Shown here piece after piece: positions 1,117-35,452 of a stretch of 40,772 nucleotides of DNA. Each line of letters starts with the position of its first letter. The first letter of the stretch is position 1. The stretch lies in IMG/VR virus record IMGVR_UViG_3300020473_000057, positions 1-40,772 of that record. One strand, written 5' to 3'. Below the pieces are notes generated by a model. It was not told where the DNA came from. It saw only the letters and a list, made by a program, of their open reading frames with translations, and did no database searches. Source of the DNA: a virus. Position numbers and translations under genes: made by a program.

Positions 1117-1821
1117 ATGCCATTACCTAAGTTAGCCATACCTGAGTATGAAGCGACCTTGCCTGTCACAGGCACAAAAATATCATATAGACCATTCTTA
1201 GTTAAGGAAGAGAAACTACTCTATCTTGCTATGGAGTCGCAAGACAACAAGCAAATGGTCAAAGCAGTGAAGACTATTATTAAAAACTGTACAAACTTAA
1301 AGACTAAGGTTGAGGATCTCGCTACTTTCGAGATTGAATATATTTTCCTTAAGATTAGATCTGTTGCAGTTGGTGAGACAAGTGAATTTAAAGTCACATG
1401 TCCAGATGATGAGAAAACACAAGTTACTGTTACTATACCTCTTGCAGATGTAGGTTGTAAAATCCCAGATGATCATGACTCTAAAATACAGTTAGATCAG
1501 GAAGTGGGTATTAAGATGAAGTATCCATCATTGGATGTATTCATTCAGCAAAACCTATCTGAGAATCCTAATATTGATGATATCTTTGAGTTAGCTGCTG
1601 GATGTATTGATCAGGTATATACCTCAGATGAGGTTTATGATACTTTTAGTAAGAAAGAAGCACTTGAATTCCTTGAAGATTTGAATGCAGAGCAATTTGC
1701 TAAGATTCAGCAATTCTTTGAGACAATGCCTAAACTATCTTATACACTAGAAGTTCTTAATCCTGAGACTAAAGTTAAGAGTGATTTGGAACTGGAGGGT
1801 CTAGCGGCTTTTTTCGAGTAG
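1117..1821 (+). CDS. gp26: gp26-like baseplate hub protein / tail assembly chaperone
   Basis: A 234-aa acidic protein resembling the T4 gp26 family of baseplate proteins (seen as IPEYEATLPVTGTKISYRPF near residue 7 and YPSLDVFIQQNL near 137). It sits just ahead of a 63-codon frame and two tape-measure-like genes, the position held by tail assembly chaperones in many tailed phages. The last codons read GCT TTT TTC GAG TAG, a canonical slippery site, and the downstream frame is -1 relative to this gene. A -1 shift would yield a 300-residue fusion. It is therefore plausible that this protein acts as a G-like chaperone for the tape measure rather than, or as well as, a structural hub part. The family call is fairly sure; the chaperone role is inference. 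Confidence 0.7.
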   Translation: MPLPKLAIPEYEATLPVTGTKISYRPFLVKEEKLLYLAMESQDNKQMVKAVKTIIKNCTNLKTKVEDLATFEIEYIFLKIRSVAVGETSEFKVTCPDDEKTQVTVTIPLADVGCKIPDDHDSKIQLDQEVGIKMKYPSLDVFIQQNLSENPNIDDIFELAAGCIDQVYTSDEVYDTFSKKEALEFLEDLNAEQFAKIQQFFETMPKLSYTLEVLNPETKVKSDLELEGLAAFFE

Positions 1822-1875
1822 CGTTAATGCACGACAGTCTTGAGAATTACTACAAGACAAACTTCGCATTAATGC
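1809..1875 (+). promoter_or_regulatory. Candidate programmed -1 ribosomal frameshift signal
   Basis: Slippery heptamer T TTT TTC at 1809-1815 is in the correct zero-frame phase. After a 5-nt spacer, GCGTTAATGC (1821-1830) pairs with GCATTAATGC (1866-1875) over 10 bp with one G-U. A second stem, GTCTTG (1837-1842) with CAAGAC (1853-1858), nests inside it with a 10-nt loop. The -1 frame is open from the slip into the 63-codon frame. The ATG of that frame (1827-1829) is buried in the outer stem and has no good Shine-Dalgarno. Confidence 0.7.
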
Positions 1876-2018
1876 AACATCACAAATATAGTCTTACTGA
1901 ATTGGAGAACATGATACCGTGGGAACGTGATGTGTATGTGAACCTTCTTATTGCTCATATTCAAGAGGAAGAGAGGAGACAGAAGGCAGACGAACAAGCA
2001 GGTAGAGTATCACTCTAA
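1827..2018 (+). CDS. Small hub/tail assembly protein, likely made as a -1 frameshift extension of gp26-like protein
   Basis: A 63-codon frame encoding a helical, charged peptide (LTELENMIPWERDVYVNLL near residue 23). The PWER-type helix is reminiscent of short tail assembly chaperone domains that recruit the tape measure. It is in the -1 frame relative to the gp26-like gene and the frame stays open upstream through the slippery site, so a fusion adding R-V-A-L plus these 63 residues is possible. Independent initiation looks poor: no purine-rich Shine-Dalgarno is visible and the ATG is within a predicted stem. It overlaps the next gene as TAATG. In T4 this position corresponds to hub assembly factors (gp51, gp28), but no clear homology to them is visible. 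Confidence 0.7.
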   Translation: MHDSLENYYKTNFALMQHHKYSLTELENMIPWERDVYVNLLIAHIQEEERRQKADEQAGRVSL

Positions 2019-4264
2019 TGATTAGAAGTTACGTTAAAATTAAACCTATAAAAGACGATGGTGCCTTTGGATCAAATTTCAATGAGGTCCGTAAGGGTAT
2101 CAATCGTACAGGTTCCGTAACTGAAAATATTGGTAATAATCTAGTAGAGACTCATAAACTAATTCAATTTGAGAAAGACTGGTTAAGGGATAAGCAAGAT
2201 AAGGAAGTAGATGATGATAAAGATGATGAGAAAGAATCGCTGCAAGGATTTAAACGGTGGTTTAAGGGATTCCGAGATATGTTCCGTCTCCAGAAGAGAG
2301 ACGAAAGTACTAAGGATAAAGAATTAGAAAAGATAGAAGAAGAAGGTGGTAACTTTGGTCAGAAGACAAAGGAGAAAGTTAAGAGTGGTCTTGAACTACT
2401 AGGTGGTTTCTTAACACCTATTTTTAAATGGGTTGTTACTATGGGTGTCCTTAAATGGATGTCCGATCCAGAGAATGCTAAGAAAGCAGAGAAGGTATTC
2501 AAACTTATAGGTGCTATTGCTAAATTTGCCTGGAAAATAGGTAAGTTTGGTGTGGGTCTTATAATGGCAGGACTCACCAAGGTATTTGGTGTTTTTGATG
2601 GAAGTACTAGTCCTATTAAGAAAGGATTCAAATTTGTATTTGGTGCCTTACAGTTATTTGCAGGTTTTAAAACTCTTCAATATCTTTTAAATCCTCTTAA
2701 GGCAGTATCTGATGCAAAGAAATTAACTACTCTCTTTAATAGTAATGCAGAGAAGGAAGTAGAGTTTAAAAAGAATGAGCAGTGGCGTAAGTTTGGTTAT
2801 AAGGATAAAGAAACAGGTGCAATCTATACAGAGAAGGAATATAAAGCACAGAAGAAGTCAGTAGAGAGACAGCAGAAGAAGTTAAGAAAACAAGGTAGAG
2901 ACGCACAAGCAAAACAACTTGGTGCCAAGTTTAATAGTAGGGTAAAGAATCCAACAAGACTACAACAGGGTAAGAATGTTGGTAAGAAGTTGTTGAAACC
3001 TGGAATGCAGAAAGGTATCGCTGTTGTTGGTGGTATCTCTCGTATTGCATCAGGTATTGCAATGGGTGAGGATAAGACTCAAGCAGTTGGTGCAGGTATT
3101 GGTCAAGCAGCAGGAGGTATGATAGGTGCTGCTGCTGGTACTGCATTATTAGGTCCATTCCTAGGTCCATTTGCACCTATAGTAGGTAATGCTATTGGTA
3201 GTTTCTTAGGTGAGTGGGTAGGTAAGACATTCTTACCAATGATTAAACCACTATTTGAACCTATTCAGAAAGCATTCCAGATGTGGTGGACAATCATCAA
3301 AGGTGTTGCTGATGAGACTGGTATTACAGAGTTCCTTGGTACATTCTTTAAGTTCCTAGGACAAATAGGTAAGGTCATGTTTGATATCCTTGGATGGATA
3401 ATGAAACCTCTGACATGGTTATTAGGTGGTGCAATTAAAGTTATTGGTAAGAGTATAAGTTTTATTATTAGTGCTGCTAAGAATATATTTGCGTTTATGG
3501 TTAATCCCATAGGATTCGCATGGAAAATTATAAGAGGTAAGGATCCTGGAAAGGATGTAAAACTGGAGGAGATGTCCGAGGGTGGTGCTTTACAGGCAGC
3601 ATTCTTATCTGGTTATGCTGAAGGTGGTAAGTATACTATGGGATATAGAATGGGGCAGATAACCCCAGATCAATATATCTACAATTTCCAGAAGTTTACC
3701 AGTAAGACAGTAGTAAAAGGTGGTGAATTAATAGAAGAATCTGAGAATCTTACTGAGCTTGGTGGATCTATTGAGGTACAAGATTTAATAGATCATAAGG
3801 AACAATTACTATCTCATCCTCTATTAAAGTCATTTAAGATAGCAGATATTATAAACAGGAAGACAGGTCTACCACCAGAGGTATTATTTCCTATTCTTAT
3901 GGAAAGTGATGCTCAGGAGGCAACTTATAAGAAGATGGATGCTGCTATTGCTCTTGATATCAAGAAGATGGAAGCGAAGTTTGGTAAGGGTAAGGGATGG
4001 AGTTGGTACGATACGTCTTTCTCAGAGGGTGGTGAATTTAGATCAGGCACATTGAGTGATAGTCAGATATTTGAAATGACTGAGAAGAGAGATGCAATGC
4101 ATGATCAATTCAAATATAAGAATCAGAGAGATAATGATGCAGAGATGATGATGCAAGCACCCATCGTTATTACTAAACAAGTTACAACTCCTGTAATAAA
4201 TACTAAGAGTAGTGGACACATTATACCTGTGGTCGCTTCTCCATCACCAATGTTTACCTGTTAA
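2018..4264 (+). CDS. Tape-measure-like / baseplate hub protein, paralog 1
   Basis: A 748-aa protein with a charged, coiled-coil-prone N-terminus (residues 1-115, rich in K, E and D), then several hydrophobic segments (about 125-225), a second basic coiled region (about 245-325), a Gly/Ala-rich stretch (about 335-400, with GAAAGTALLGPFLGPFAP) and further hydrophobic helices to about 500. This alternation is typical of tape-measure proteins, which thread the tail tube and set its length. T4 uses gp29 (590 aa) for this job. The next gene has the same architecture and shared motifs (GAL/AVxLFAGF), so the two are paralogs. Start codon overlaps the previous stop (TAATG). The exact division of labour between the two copies is unknown. 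Confidence 0.6.
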   Translation: MIRSYVKIKPIKDDGAFGSNFNEVRKGINRTGSVTENIGNNLVETHKLIQFEKDWLRDKQDKEVDDDKDDEKESLQGFKRWFKGFRDMFRLQKRDESTKDKELEKIEEEGGNFGQKTKEKVKSGLELLGGFLTPIFKWVVTMGVLKWMSDPENAKKAEKVFKLIGAIAKFAWKIGKFGVGLIMAGLTKVFGVFDGSTSPIKKGFKFVFGALQLFAGFKTLQYLLNPLKAVSDAKKLTTLFNSNAEKEVEFKKNEQWRKFGYKDKETGAIYTEKEYKAQKKSVERQQKKLRKQGRDAQAKQLGAKFNSRVKNPTRLQQGKNVGKKLLKPGMQKGIAVVGGISRIASGIAMGEDKTQAVGAGIGQAAGGMIGAAAGTALLGPFLGPFAPIVGNAIGSFLGEWVGKTFLPMIKPLFEPIQKAFQMWWTIIKGVADETGITEFLGTFFKFLGQIGKVMFDILGWIMKPLTWLLGGAIKVIGKSISFIISAAKNIFAFMVNPIGFAWKIIRGKDPGKDVKLEEMSEGGALQAAFLSGYAEGGKYTMGYRMGQITPDQYIYNFQKFTSKTVVKGGELIEESENLTELGGSIEVQDLIDHKEQLLSHPLLKSFKIADIINRKTGLPPEVLFPILMESDAQEATYKKMDAAIALDIKKMEAKFGKGKGWSWYDTSFSEGGEFRSGTLSDSQIFEMTEKRDAMHDQFKYKNQRDNDAEMMMQAPIVITKQVTTPVINTKSSGHIIPVVASPSPMFTC

Positions 4265-4267
4265 TAG

Positions 4268-6460
4268 ATGGCAGTAAAGGCAGACATAAAGAAACCAGCA
4301 CTTTATAAGATGATATCTTATAAGGGTACTACTGGTGCCAAGAGTTATACTCCTTTAACTGCTGCGAAGAGATTGCGTGAGCATGAGAAGAGTATGGGTA
4401 CAGGATTTAGTTCTGTAATTGCTGGTATAAACTCACTTGGTGCTACTATTAATAGTATTGCTGTAAATACTCAAGGTCTTCTTAATGGTTGGCAAGAGAG
4501 TATTAATTCACAGGTAAAGGATGCTAATAGAGTAGAGAAGTTAAAAGCAAAGAATAAGAAGTTACAGGAAAAGAGAGATCGTAAGAAAGAGAAGGAAGAG
4601 AAAGATAGGAGAGCATTATTAGCAAGAGAGAAGAGCACTAAAGATCCTGAGAAGAAGAAGGTAAGTAAGAATCCTGTTGTAGCAGCAGTTGCTAAACAGA
4701 GTGAAGGTTTCTTAAAATGGTTAGGTAAACTGGTAGGAAGTTTAATTAGTATTGCTATATTGGATTGGGTACGAAAGAATCCAGAGGCAGTAGAGAAACT
4801 TGTTAAGACATTAGGTGCTATAGGTAAGTTTATATTTAAGACTGTTGGATTTCTGGCAGGAATGTCGTTAGATGGTTTGGTGTCATTTCTTGAGAATCCT
4901 ATAAGTCTCAAAGGAATCTTTGGTATATTTAAGTTTCTAATTGGTGCTGTACCATTATTTGCAGGGTTTGCGATATTAAAGAATCCTGTTGGGGCTATTA
5001 AAATTATTGGTAAGGTAGTTGGTGGAATAATACAGTCTATTAAACGACTGTTTGGATTGAATAGTAAGGCAGATAAATTTAAACAATTTAAACTGAAGAA
5101 GTTAGGGAAGGGAGGTAATTTCTTCCAGAGTAAGACAGGTAAAATTGCTATGGGTCTTGGTGCTGGTGCTACAGCAGCTACAGCAGTATTAGCTGGAGGT
5201 GGTACAGGTGCTGAGGCAGCAGGTGCAGGTGTTGGTGCTGCTGGTGGTCAGATGCTTGGTGCCAAACTAGGTGCTGCTACTGGTATTCCAGGTATGGGTG
5301 CTGTCGGTGGTATGGTCGGTACCATGGCAGGTGGTGCTGTTGGTAAGGCAATAGGAGGATTAATTCAACCTATTGTTGAACCTTTTAAAGAATGGTTCGG
5401 TATGGTTAGTAAGGTATTCAATGATGTATTAAAGGATATTAAAGAACCATTAGAGCAATTCTTTAGTGCTCTTGGTGCATTCATGAGTAAGATACTGAAA
5501 GTGGTAGAACCTCATCTACCTATGATTACTAAGATAATCAGTACTGGTATTCAGATTGTATTTGCTCCTTTATTCTTAGGTATTAAAGCATTAACTGCGG
5601 TATTAAAATTATTCACAGGTGGTGAAGGTAAAGGTGAAGAGAAGACTGTAGAAGTACCAAAAGAAGCAGTTGAAACGCCTAGTGGTGGTAATGAGACGAA
5701 GACTCTACTGATTGCTGGTATGCCTGTAGGTGAAAAACTCACCAAGGAACAGTTGGCGATCATTGGAATGGCTCGTCAAATGGATGAGAGTAATTTCAAG
5801 AGGTATCCACCAAACGTACAGCAGATGTACGAAGAGCAATCTGCTGGACAGCAACCAACAGAAGAGAAGTCAAGAGGTGGTTGGATTAAAGGTCCACTGT
5901 CAGGATATAAAGTATCATTAGATGGTAAGAAACCCTCGTTTATTGGACATGGTACTGAGTGGGTAGGTAGGAAAGCAGGTGGTAAAGCATTTGTGGTACC
6001 ATTTGATACTCCTGCAACTAGAACTGACAGAGGTCTCACCAATAGGAGATTGGGTGAAGCTGCCAGAGGTGGATACACATTACCTAGGGGATTTGCTAAG
6101 GGTGGAGAATTAAAAGGATGGAAGAGATGGTTAGCAGGTGCTGCTGATCAAATGACTGGTGGTTTCTGGGATTTTGATAAAAAAGGACATTCAATCTATC
6201 AAGCATCTGGTCAGTTACAGAAGGCAGGTGAAATCATTGAGAATGTCAAGCAAGCAATGACTGAGCAGAAGGCAGAGATGTTATCACAACCATCTGTAAC
6301 TCAGATTAATGATTCAAACCCAGCAGTAGTTGTTGGAGAGGATGGTGATGATATGCCAATCCTTATTCCTGGTAGAGAGGAATTGGATGCTGATAAGTAT
6401 ATTAAACCTAAGTATGGTTTGATTGCTGAGTTCTTAACTGATCCTGTGGAGTTTATGTAA
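4268..6460 (+). CDS. Tape-measure-like / baseplate hub protein, paralog 2
   Basis: A 730-aa protein three bases after paralog 1. It has a K/E-rich coiled-coil (about residues 80-130), hydrophobic segments (about 145-265), a Gly/Ala-rich region (about 295-365, with GAAGGQMLGAKLGAATG), another hydrophobic block (about 400-445), and a Gly-rich C-terminal half with RGG and KGG motifs. Shared features with paralog 1 are the order GFLKW...NPEAVEK...IGKF...GLV, the LFAGF motif, and a PIVEPFKEWF segment aligned to PLFEPIQKAF in paralog 1. The next gene starts directly after its stop. Likely a tail-length or hub component; it could also carry a distinct ejection function. Confidence 0.6.
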   Translation: MAVKADIKKPALYKMISYKGTTGAKSYTPLTAAKRLREHEKSMGTGFSSVIAGINSLGATINSIAVNTQGLLNGWQESINSQVKDANRVEKLKAKNKKLQEKRDRKKEKEEKDRRALLAREKSTKDPEKKKVSKNPVVAAVAKQSEGFLKWLGKLVGSLISIAILDWVRKNPEAVEKLVKTLGAIGKFIFKTVGFLAGMSLDGLVSFLENPISLKGIFGIFKFLIGAVPLFAGFAILKNPVGAIKIIGKVVGGIIQSIKRLFGLNSKADKFKQFKLKKLGKGGNFFQSKTGKIAMGLGAGATAATAVLAGGGTGAEAAGAGVGAAGGQMLGAKLGAATGIPGMGAVGGMVGTMAGGAVGKAIGGLIQPIVEPFKEWFGMVSKVFNDVLKDIKEPLEQFFSALGAFMSKILKVVEPHLPMITKIISTGIQIVFAPLFLGIKALTAVLKLFTGGEGKGEEKTVEVPKEAVETPSGGNETKTLLIAGMPVGEKLTKEQLAIIGMARQMDESNFKRYPPNVQQMYEEQSAGQQPTEEKSRGGWIKGPLSGYKVSLDGKKPSFIGHGTEWVGRKAGGKAFVVPFDTPATRTDRGLTNRRLGEAARGGYTLPRGFAKGGELKGWKRWLAGAADQMTGGFWDFDKKGHSIYQASGQLQKAGEIIENVKQAMTEQKAEMLSQPSVTQINDSNPAVVVGEDGDDMPILIPGREELDADKYIKPKYGLIAEFLTDPVEFM

Positions 6461-27316: not shown

Positions 27317-28786
27317 ATGAAATTTACTGTAGTGGGAGGTGGCACTGCTGGTTGGATGACCGCAGCGACACTTAATAAAGCATATCCAGATTCTACAATT
27401 ATTGTGTATGAGTCTCCCGATACTCCAGCAACAGGAGTAGGTGAGTCTACTACACAATTTTTTCGTTATTGGTTAAATTATATTGGTCTTCAAGATGAAG
27501 ACTGGATGAAGGAATGTGATGCAACATATAAAGTTAGTGTAAGGTTTCATAATTTTCATCAGAAAGGTGATGACCCTTGGCATTATCCATTTGGCACACC
27601 TAGAGAGGACATATATTCACCAGACTATTGGTATTGGTACCAATATAAGAAAGGATGGAAGAATAGTAAATTTGCACCAGATTATTGCATATCTGCAAAA
27701 TGCTCTGATGAAAATAAATTGCCTGTAGGAAAATATGCTGAGGGGTATTTTCCCTTAAGGAAGTTTAGTGGATTTCATTTCAATGCAGTTAAGTTTGCTA
27801 ACTTCTTAAGAGATAATGTATGTCTACCAGCAGGTGTTATTCATAAGATAGAGACATTAGACGGTAAACCAGATAATAATTCAGATCTATATTTTGACTG
27901 CACAGGATTCAAATCACTATTAAATAAATCACCTTGGAAATCATTTGAGGATTGGTTACCAAATAATAGTGCTATAGTCACACGTGTACATTATGATGAT
28001 AAAGAGATACAGATTAAACCAGTAACAGATTGCACAGCATTATCTTCTGGTTGGGTGTGGAATGTACCAACGTGGGATACTATTGGTACAGGATATGTTT
28101 ATTGTGATAAGTTTCTGACTAAAAAACAAGCAATTAAAGAGTTTAGGGAGCATCTAACAAATAATGTACAGAGTGATTGTGATGCATACTCTGACAAGAT
28201 GTTCCGTCAGATTAAGTTTAAGACTGGTAGAAGAGAGGAGATATGGAAGGGTGATGTAGTTTCTATTGGATTATCTGCTGGTTTTGTTGAACCATTAGAA
28301 TCTAATGGATTACTATCCATACATAATTTTCTATTATATTTCATTCGTGTAATGCAGAATAGGACTAATGTAACTCAATACATGAGAGATACATTTAATA
28401 ATCATTGTAATTATAAGTTTGATGGATTTGCGTCATTTGTGGCATGTCATTATGCTATGACACAACGTGATGATACAGACTATTGGAAATATGTAAGTAA
28501 GATACGGTATCCCTACAATGATTTACTATCATCTATTGAGATAAATTATATGGAGGAGTCTGCTAATTTTGCTGAGAAATATTCATGGCATAACTTGGCA
28601 TCTGAAGCATTATTTTATATAATGTCAGGACATGGTTGGAATCCATTTAATGATGTTGTTGAAGCAGAGATGGAATTCTTAGGTGCACATGTTGAAGAGT
28701 ATGATGAAGTTGGTTGGGATCAAAGTGAAATAGATAATATGCCCTCACCTTATCAATATTATCAGGACACAATTTATGCGAGTTGA
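27317..28786 (+). CDS. Flavin-dependent (tryptophan-type) halogenase 1
   Basis: A 489-aa protein of the PrnA/VirX1 family. All signature elements are visible: FAD-binding GGGTAGWMTA (7-16), GVGES (40-44), the catalytic lysine in ATYK (Lys72), the halogenase motif WxWxIP as WVWNVP (246-251), and the FVEPLES segment (323-329) with the conserved Glu-Ser pair. The enzyme uses FADH2, O2 and halide to make hypohalous acid that is held at the lysine and passed to a substrate. A cyanophage homologue (VirX1 of Syn10) is known to halogenate many compounds, preferring iodide; its natural substrate is unknown. No flavin reductase is visible, so the host must supply FADH2. It overlaps halogenase 2. Confidence 0.9.
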   Translation: MKFTVVGGGTAGWMTAATLNKAYPDSTIIVYESPDTPATGVGESTTQFFRYWLNYIGLQDEDWMKECDATYKVSVRFHNFHQKGDDPWHYPFGTPREDIYSPDYWYWYQYKKGWKNSKFAPDYCISAKCSDENKLPVGKYAEGYFPLRKFSGFHFNAVKFANFLRDNVCLPAGVIHKIETLDGKPDNNSDLYFDCTGFKSLLNKSPWKSFEDWLPNNSAIVTRVHYDDKEIQIKPVTDCTALSSGWVWNVPTWDTIGTGYVYCDKFLTKKQAIKEFREHLTNNVQSDCDAYSDKMFRQIKFKTGRREEIWKGDVVSIGLSAGFVEPLESNGLLSIHNFLLYFIRVMQNRTNVTQYMRDTFNNHCNYKFDGFASFVACHYAMTQRDDTDYWKYVSKIRYPYNDLLSSIEINYMEESANFAEKYSWHNLASEALFYIMSGHGWNPFNDVVEAEMEFLGAHVEEYDEVGWDQSEIDNMPSPYQYYQDTIYAS

Positions 28787-30368
28787 ATCTATTTGTATCG
28801 TAGGTGGTGGTAGTGCTGGTTGGATGACAGCAGCATTATTATCACATGAACATCCAGACCTAGAGATAGCATTAATAGAATCAGAGAATATTAAACCTAT
28901 AGGTGTAGGAGAATCTACCCTACAACATTTCAATAGATTTCTAAAGCGATTAGGATTAAAGGATGAGGACTGGATGCCATACTGTAATGCTACGTACAAA
29001 GCATCTATTCGTTTTAAAAATTTTAGAGACGGTAAGGGAGAAATATTCCAGTATCCATTTGGTGACATGGATCGTGAGGGTGATATTGATAGGACAGATA
29101 CATGGATGATGAGGTTCTTTGAATTGCAATGCATCTATGGTGAAGAGATGTACCCACCAGAGGAGTTTGCACAGTTTGTTAATAGACAGACATATCTAGC
29201 AGATGGTGGTGTCATGGCAAGAGAGATGCCAGGTATATTAGATAGAGAAGAATCTAACTGGGATCTTGATAATGATACTTCATATCATTTGAATGCTGAT
29301 AAGTTTGGTGAGTATCTCAGAGATAATATTGCAGTACCAAATGGTGTGCATCATATTAAAGGTGATGTACATAATGTCATTAAGACACCAGAAGGATATA
29401 TTAAATCTGTTATTACATTAGATGGTGGATGTATTACTGCTGATATGTTTATTGATTGCACAGGTTTTAGATCTCTATTACTTGAATCACACATGGATGT
29501 AGAGTTTAAACCATTTAATGATATGTTATTCAATGATAGTGCATTGGTAACACACATAGATTATAAGGATAAAGAAACACAGATGGTACCTTATACTGAC
29601 TGTGTTGCGTTATCTAACGGATGGGTGTATAATATTCCTATGTGGAATAATATAGGTACTGGATATGTTTATTCAAGTAAGTATATCAATGATTGCGAGG
29701 CAGAATTAGAATTTAGAGAGTATCTAAATGACCAGGATTGCCCATTAATGCCTATAAAAATAAAGCATGGTAGACATGATGTAGCATGGACTAAGAATGT
29801 AGTTGCTATTGGTTTATCTTATGGATTTCTAGAACCACTAGAATCTACAGGACTAATGACAACACATGAGAATTTGATATTATTATCGGATGCATTGTCA
29901 CAACGTCATGGTAAAGTCACCAAACACGATAGAGATGTATTTAATCATTTAACTGAGAAGATAATTGAAAGCATGAAGAATTTCGTAGCACAACATTATA
30001 CTCTTAGTTCTCGTGATGATACACAATATTGGAGAGATTGTACAGAGACAGTTGAATATGGTGGTTATATACCTGGTATGAATGAAGCATCACTTGTTGC
30101 TCTCAATGACTATAGAAATCTATTAGATTCAATTGAAATGAAGACATGGGAAACTGAGAACATGGGTGAAGGCACTATATACATTACTGCTGGTATGGGA
30201 ATTAAACCCATAAGTAAAGCATTCTTCGATGAAAAGAGATTAGATGTTGAGAAAGAAGCAGTAAAAGATTCACACAAAGCATATCAAAAAGACAAAGAGA
30301 TTATGTTAGATTGGGTATCTAAACAACTATCACATTATGAGTACTTAAAGGAACACATTTATGTTTAA
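28776..30368 (+). CDS. Flavin-dependent (tryptophan-type) halogenase 2
   Basis: A 530-aa paralog of the preceding gene, overlapping it by 11 bp. Motifs: VGGGSAGWMTAALL (9-22), GVGES (43-47), ATYK (Lys75), and the FLEPLESTG segment (351-359). The halogenase motif reads WVYNIP (283-288), so the second Trp of WxWxIP is a Tyr; in PrnA-type enzymes this motif keeps the flavin from acting as a monooxygenase. The lysine and Glu are intact, so activity is still likely. It is about 40 residues longer, with inserts near 93-165. Substrate unknown. Confidence 0.88.
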   Translation: MRVESICIVGGGSAGWMTAALLSHEHPDLEIALIESENIKPIGVGESTLQHFNRFLKRLGLKDEDWMPYCNATYKASIRFKNFRDGKGEIFQYPFGDMDREGDIDRTDTWMMRFFELQCIYGEEMYPPEEFAQFVNRQTYLADGGVMAREMPGILDREESNWDLDNDTSYHLNADKFGEYLRDNIAVPNGVHHIKGDVHNVIKTPEGYIKSVITLDGGCITADMFIDCTGFRSLLLESHMDVEFKPFNDMLFNDSALVTHIDYKDKETQMVPYTDCVALSNGWVYNIPMWNNIGTGYVYSSKYINDCEAELEFREYLNDQDCPLMPIKIKHGRHDVAWTKNVVAIGLSYGFLEPLESTGLMTTHENLILLSDALSQRHGKVTKHDRDVFNHLTEKIIESMKNFVAQHYTLSSRDDTQYWRDCTETVEYGGYIPGMNEASLVALNDYRNLLDSIEMKTWETENMGEGTIYITAGMGIKPISKAFFDEKRLDVEKEAVKDSHKAYQKDKEIMLDWVSKQLSHYEYLKEHIYV

Positions 30369-34246: not shown

Positions 34247-34479
34247 CAGAGAAACTAGATATACTAATAAATAGTTCTGCAAAGGATCTATTGGGGAAGG
34301 GTTCTCAAATGTACATGTCGTTAAAAACTGCTATCTTAGATCACGACCAAAAGGAGTTACTTAAGAAAGCATTATTCTTCTATCAGAAGGATGCTTGTGA
34401 GCATTATGGTGATGTATCACAAGAAGATAAAGGATTAATTGAGTCAATTATTGACAAACTGCATATGAAACATATATGA
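34243..34479 (+). CDS. Small helical hypothetical protein
   Basis: A 78-aa all-helical protein (LINSSAKDLLGKGSQMYMSL near residue 8; KELLKKALFFYQKDACEHYG near 37) with no known domain. It is wedged between two oxygenase genes with 4-bp overlaps at both ends, so it is likely translated in step with them and may be an adaptor. Not recognised. Confidence 0.65.
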   Translation: MTEKLDILINSSAKDLLGKGSQMYMSLKTAILDHDQKELLKKALFFYQKDACEHYGDVSQEDKGLIESIIDKLHMKHI

Positions 34480-35105
34480 TAAATGATCCACAGGTAGTTC
34501 AATTATTCTCACATCCACTGGCAATTAATCAGGTAAATCCTGATAAATTTAAAACTATAAAAGATGCAGCATCAGATACTTTCATTGAAAGAGAAAATGC
34601 TGGTCATAATAATGGTTCAATGAGTGGGACTAATTGGTTGGAATCACAACCAGAAGTTAGAACTATTGTGGAGCAACATTTATCAGCATATGTATTTGGT
34701 GTGCTGGCAATAGATGAAACTAAACACTACTTACAACATACATCATCATGGGTTAATAAACATGTACCTGGAGATCTAGGTGCAGGTCACTCTCATTCAA
34801 ATGCTATGTTTAGTGGTGTTTTGTACTTTAAAGTACCACAGAATTCAGGTGCTATAATATTTCATCTACCTGCAATGTTTCCTACATTTTGTACACAAAC
34901 ATTATACCCTGAGGTACGAGAGTATAATGAATATAATATGAGAGAAGCAACTATCAATCCTGTAGATGGTATGATATTATGTTTTCCCTCACATTTACCA
35001 CACAGTATAAATGAGAATCTATCTAACGAGGATAGATATTCTATGGCATTTAATTACATCTTGCGTGGTGAATATGGTGAAAGAGATCACTATTTAAAAC
35101 TATGA
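34476..35105 (+). CDS. 2OG-Fe(II) oxygenase (TIGR02466-like)
   Basis: A 209-aa protein. Iron ligands: His105 and His107 in GAGHSHSNAMFSGVLYFKVP, distal His176 in FPSHLPHSINENLSNEDR with Arg187 for 2-oxoglutarate. The overall plan parallels the enzyme at 31588. The first ligand pair is H-x-H rather than H-x-D, as in that subfamily. It is the last of the five-oxygenase run. Confidence 0.75.
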   Translation: MINDPQVVQLFSHPLAINQVNPDKFKTIKDAASDTFIERENAGHNNGSMSGTNWLESQPEVRTIVEQHLSAYVFGVLAIDETKHYLQHTSSWVNKHVPGDLGAGHSHSNAMFSGVLYFKVPQNSGAIIFHLPAMFPTFCTQTLYPEVREYNEYNMREATINPVDGMILCFPSHLPHSINENLSNEDRYSMAFNYILRGEYGERDHYLKL

Positions 35106-35452
35106 CTATTCCTATATTTTTAGCGGAGGCAATTCCATTGGAGATTAGAAACATTCTTAAATCCCTTGAGAAGGGGCAGAAGGTTAGGTTGAAGAATGGT
35201 GATGAAGGATATATCAATTTTATTAGTGATGATTATATTACTGTTAGTATGCATAGGAGAGAAGATCCTAACAGTATGCATGGTTATAAAGAGACTAACG
35301 TCTTAGTATATCCACATGAGTGGGATGATATGTATATTGAAGCAGATCATTTCTACAATAAGAAGAGTTATAAAGGTTATATAAGAGAACATCCTGGCAA
35401 CGAAGATTTACCAACTGATATTACAGGCATACCAAATGAGAACACAGAATAA
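35102..35452 (+). CDS. Hypothetical protein
   Basis: A 116-aa protein with an SH3-like beta stretch (GQKVRLKNGDEGYINFISDD, residues 25-44) that may bind nucleic acid or protein; the C-terminal third is acidic and proline-containing. It overlaps both neighbours. Not recognised. Confidence 0.65.
   Translation: MTIPIFLAEAIPLEIRNILKSLEKGQKVRLKNGDEGYINFISDDYITVSMHRREDPNSMHGYKETNVLVYPHEWDDMYIEADHFYNKKSYKGYIREHPGNEDLPTDITGIPNENTE

Follow-up and report, generated by a model that had tools for sequence, protein, structure and literature searches.

A conserved slippery site and a downstream RNA structure point to −1 frameshifting in the gp26-like tail chaperone gene of T4-like phages

Judging from the sequence at its 3′ end and from its relatives, a gp26-like gene of a marine T4-like cyanophage, like that of nearly all the relatives analyzed, very probably yields two products through a −1 slip, forming a tail assembly chaperone pair of the lambda G/GT type. 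The programmed −1 frameshift, already proposed in a sequence-only reading of this DNA, is supported by a conserved heptamer, by its phase, by an open −1 frame, and by a structure in the downstream RNA. The window, that is, the whole stretch of DNA analyzed, is an entire virus record of 40,772 bases that contains CpeT, transaldolase, and T4-like tail genes, and therefore represents part of a T4-like cyanophage genome; the proposed frameshift junction and the genes on either side of it are all encoded on the plus strand.

The candidate short product is encoded by the zero-frame ORF at 1117-1821, a gp26-like protein of 234 aa that matches PF12322 (E 1.9e-66) and phrog_150 (E 1.6e-74), has an AlphaFold2 model with a pLDDT of 88.7, and would represent the chaperone N domain (the "G" role). 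The end of this ORF reads GCT TTT TTC GAG TAG (1807-1821), where the slippery heptamer T TTT TTC (1809-1815) is in the frame of the 234-aa ORF, as the sequence-only reading had it. The same reading placed the heptamer three codons before the stop; the proximity to the stop holds, but GAG is the sole sense codon between TTC and the zero-frame TAG (1819-1821). The 5-nt spacer GAGTA (1816-1820), which includes the first two bases of that TAG, was correctly described, and so was the −1 frame, open from upstream of the heptamer into the 63-codon ORF at 1827-2018. After the slip, this frame runs for 67 codons to a stop (1815-2018), and the extension is the putative C-terminal domain of the long product (the "GT" role). 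Among the other in-phase heptamers of the window, only two precede a long −1 extension, and one of these belongs to an ORF nested in a larger gene. In the ORF of a 2OG-Fe(II) oxygenase (34476-35105), a second in-phase heptamer, T TTA AAA, stands two codons ahead of the stop (35093-35105), and the next ORF (35102-35452) starts there at an ATGA overlap, which probably makes this an ordinary gene overlap.

The conservation of the heptamer across phages, which the sequence-only reading had named as one way to check its proposal, is very high. In the near set, composed of the window and 80 IMG/VR relatives (about 50-99% identical), T TTT TTC is present in 81/81 junctions, each followed by one codon and the stop. 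Phe-Phe pairs elsewhere in the genes of this set are never coded in this way (0/84, counted on related and not independent sequences), and TTT accounts for 69% of their Phe codons; the codon choice at the heptamer is not explained by codon usage and is more than chance. A further set comprised 94 more distant loci with the end of the gene present, representing 63 distinct junctions, and T TTT TT(C/T) was found in 94/94 of them, as T TTT TTC in 80 and as T TTT TTT in 14. The distance from heptamer to stop in these loci is mostly 0-3 codons, and reaches 8 codons in six of them (L132, L158, L177, L178, L180, and L192), in which the short product carries a longer private tail. The collection was also scanned with KVP40, S13, phiM12, and T4 gp51 as queries, used singly. 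T TTT TTC was likewise present in KVP40, Cronobacter S13, Aeromonas AS-yj, Stenotrophomonas Yut2, Delftia W-14, and Synechococcus MC09, while the site reads T TTT TTG in the Pootjesviridae phiM9 and N34 and T TTT TTT in Sinorhizobium phiM12.

The −1 extension matches phrog_634, named "baseplate hub assembly catalyst" (E 1.2e-30), and positions 239-276 of phrog_150, and its frame is open in all the near relatives. The 63-aa ORF starting at ATG 1827 (1827-2018; phrog_634) is usually annotated as gp51; genome records list two separate genes, and a joined gene is annotated in none of the records examined. According to this public annotation, the 63-aa protein would be made from its own ATG, through reinitiation or translational coupling once the TAG has been reached, and an ATG is indeed found 2-6 codons after the slip in many loci, including the window, where reinitiation may take place. 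Nevertheless, this start codon is not conserved: in 27 of the 115 distinct junctions there is no ATG, GTG, or TTG within the first 14 codons of the extension, so that expression of the conserved 63-aa domain would need a shift in them. The protein at the beginning of the extension is itself conserved (RxxLSHDSLENYYxTNF and similar), and substitutions along this early stretch in related loci (2197/1239/4272 by position) favor the third positions of the −1 frame. In the window, the ATG does lie inside the downstream stem, as the sequence-only reading had noted, and a GAG, which is not conserved, sits 8 nt upstream of it. Moreover, independent expression leaves the invariant heptamer without explanation, and is difficult to reconcile with S13 and AS-yj, where the coding is kept and the downstream gene is unannotated, or with T4, where gp51 is one collinear protein spanning both parts; in P-TIM40, the downstream gene is annotated only from an internal ATG. 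A situation that suits two separate genes is that of the Ackermannviridae, whose gp26 genes (May and SKML-39; loci L087 and L094) are devoid of the heptamer and present TAATG overlaps instead, and there the downstream domain may be expressed by reinitiation, which would represent a third way. For the junction of the window, a second independent gene is a highly improbable explanation, and the 63-aa "gp51" most probably forms the domain at the C terminus of the long product.

Regarding the RNA, the minimum-free-energy fold of the region contains the stem-loop expected from the sequence-only reading (1821-1875), with an outer stem of 10 bp and one G-U (1821-1830/1866-1875) enclosing an inner stem of 6 bp (1837-1842/1853-1858). 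This fold has an energy of -21.5 kcal/mol, and compared with dinucleotide shuffles its z is -3.4 (1800-1885) or -5.1 (1809-1890). RNA structure was separated from coding by 300 synonymous recodings of the −1 frame at each locus, and native folding exceeded that of the recoded sequences, with a mean z of -2.16 over 79 loci, 66% of them with p < 0.05, and a z of -3.37 for the window; four control sites within these genes gave mean z values between -0.26 and -1.09 under synonymous recoding. The structure downstream of the heptamer therefore exceeds what protein coding imposes.

The exact stem of the window is kept in only about half of the nearest relatives, and the type of stem is specific to each clade. 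In the clade of the window (15 sequences), pairing is retained in 90% of the compared cells for the inner stem, where four pairs show two-sided changes, and in 77% for the outer stem. A second clade exhibits a different, perfect 10-bp stem located 5 nt past the site, one pair of which is seen as A-U, U-A, and G-C, and in a third clade compensating changes are seen in a 5-bp hairpin. With modest covariation among related sequences, the individual stems are supported rather than proved. A single stem common to all relatives was considered and rejected, since roughly half of the 15 nearest sequences do not keep the outer stem of the window and the other clades differ; no Rfam family was found at this junction. 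The T6-T7 run that is found throughout could also suggest transcriptional slippage, in which an extra U is inserted by the RNA polymerase at the T6 run, so that ordinary translation goes on in the −1 frame and gives the same product, but this is the least credible possibility, as six T make a short run for slippage by the polymerase, the run keeps the fixed codon phase T|TTT|TTC and is followed by C in 161/175 loci, neither of which polymerase slippage would need, and the downstream structure points to the ribosome.

In a translational −1 frameshift, the majority of ribosomes would end at the TAG at 1819 and release the short chaperone of 234 aa. A minority would instead move back by one base at T TTT TTC, where the tRNA-Phe of both the P and the A site would leave TTT TTC and pair anew with TTT TTT; the stem-loop beginning 5 nt further on would assist this step. 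The slipped ribosomes would read 67 more codons in the −1 frame and produce a long chaperone of 300 aa with an extra helical C-terminal domain. By analogy with lambda gpG/gpGT, the short and long forms together may coat the tape measure and recruit tail-tube or hub subunits. The slippage, its efficiency, and the action of the chaperones on the tape measure are what we infer from this arrangement.

The genomic setting was described in the sequence-only reading as just upstream of the tape measure, and this is clear for the upstream side, where the tail tube protein is immediately adjacent (357-1091; phrog_45, E 4e-32), but the match of the downstream side is weak. The gene immediately downstream encodes a putative tape-measure-type protein of 748 aa (2018-4264), with phrog_90 ("endolysin") as its best family and a weaker match to the tape-measure family phrog_167 (E 5e-9); for both downstream proteins, of 748 and 730 aa (2018-6460), the best families are named endolysin and the tape-measure matches are weaker, and the tape-measure label reflects their position. 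In another part of the window, phrog_2928, a tryptophan halogenase family, is matched by each of the overlapping neighbors at 27317-28786 and 28776-30368, which suggests a duplicated halogenase in a cyanophage.

The relationship with T4 becomes evident at the protein level. In T4, as in Acinetobacter phage 133, genes 26 and 51 are adjacent, on opposite strands and divergently transcribed; PF12322 matches both T4 gp26 (8.8e-64) and residues 1-201 of gp51 (3.9e-52), residues 147-246 of gp51 match the family to which the 63-aa protein belongs, phrog_634 (1.2e-23), and the two T4 proteins, which are paralogues, align with each other. In hhalign comparisons, the profile of the fused cyanophage protein matches T4-type gp51 from one end to the other and across the junction (E 3.7e-13, 236 columns), the T4-type gp26 profile aligns with the N part of the fused protein (E 8e-17), and the predicted secondary structures follow the same order, with gp51 adding a C-terminal helical part. 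These alignments indicate that the shifted product is collinear with full-length T4 gp51 and that the unshifted one is the counterpart of T4 gp26. Because of this homology and collinearity, the two genes of T4 would provide the two proteins of the frameshift pair by another route: T4 has two divergent paralogues without a slip site, whereas the window has one gene and T TTT TTC, and T4 gp26 still ends in ...EFFELL but codes its Phe-Phe by the non-slippery G TTC TTT. The view of gp26 and gp51 as separate hub proteins, mentioned in the sequence-only reading, stands for T4, whose gp51 is the in-frame equivalent of the fusion. T4 gp51 is reportedly needed for assembly and absent from the final particle (PMC3004832), which fits a chaperone role.

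Among other chaperone systems, lambda gpG/gpGT also depends on ribosomes slipping by −1 close to where the short gene ends, ahead of the tape measure, which yields a minor long form (PMC5009743); the window differs in its T TTT TTC and its 234-aa short product of the PF12322 family, and a sequence relationship with lambda was neither found nor is claimed. Pseudomonas phage Adele (Vandenendeviridae/Andersonviridae) belongs to another lineage and has the motif GTTTTT instead of T TTT TTC; in that lineage, a conserved poly-T −1 slip site ends the TAC-N gene and the downstream ORF has been mis-annotated as a gene (PMC12846349). In the structure comparison, HK97 gp13 (2OB9) appeared in Foldseek at ranks 4 and 6 (probability 0.35 and 0.20, E about 1, TM 0.37 and 0.35 on the target) and was not among the best PDB matches of the gp51 model. 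Neither model had a significant Foldseek match in the PDB, the matches among viral models were chiefly gp26-like and unnamed proteins, and a sequence search of solved structures returned no relative.

The sequence-only reading knew of no such frameshift described for T4-like phages, but it is not new to them. Vladimirov, Gautam & Davidson 2022 (Virology 566:9-15) reportedly identified the T4-like tail assembly chaperone genes gp26/gp51, and, according to papers citing it, that work deals with the frameshift. According to a 2016 review, long-tailed phages share a conserved G-T frameshift, "except T4" (PMC5009743). One of the citing papers describes T4-like phages with separate short and fused genes in place of frameshifting (PMC10885494), and another mentions poly-T −1 signals as known in T4-like TAC genes (PMC12846349). 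With the T4-like chaperones gp26/gp51, the window shares the PF12322 family and the production of N and N+C products. As far as these citing papers indicate, the chaperone frameshift of T4-like phages was already known and its two-gene counterpart in T4 is probably already published, and the novelty here may reside in the breadth of the census and in the test of the downstream RNA structure.

On balance, we consider that the −1 frameshift is somewhat more likely than not to be ancestral across the T4-like superfamily, with the heptamer approximately fixed, the stem rebuilt in each clade, and the gene duplicated in T4 into gp26 and gp51; the breadth of the frameshift, rather than a rooted tree, suggests that the T4 state is derived. 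If this is true, the cyanophage, vibriophage, and rhizophage records listing a separate "gp51 catalyst" would be mis-annotated. What many cyanophage genomes list as a small "baseplate hub assembly catalyst gp51" is most probably the end of a frameshifted chaperone. T4 gp26 and gp51, whose hub roles have long been disputed, would gain a shared logic as the short and long forms of one chaperone, and the T4-like phages would offer a natural comparison between a slippery site and two genes as ways to reach the same protein ratio.
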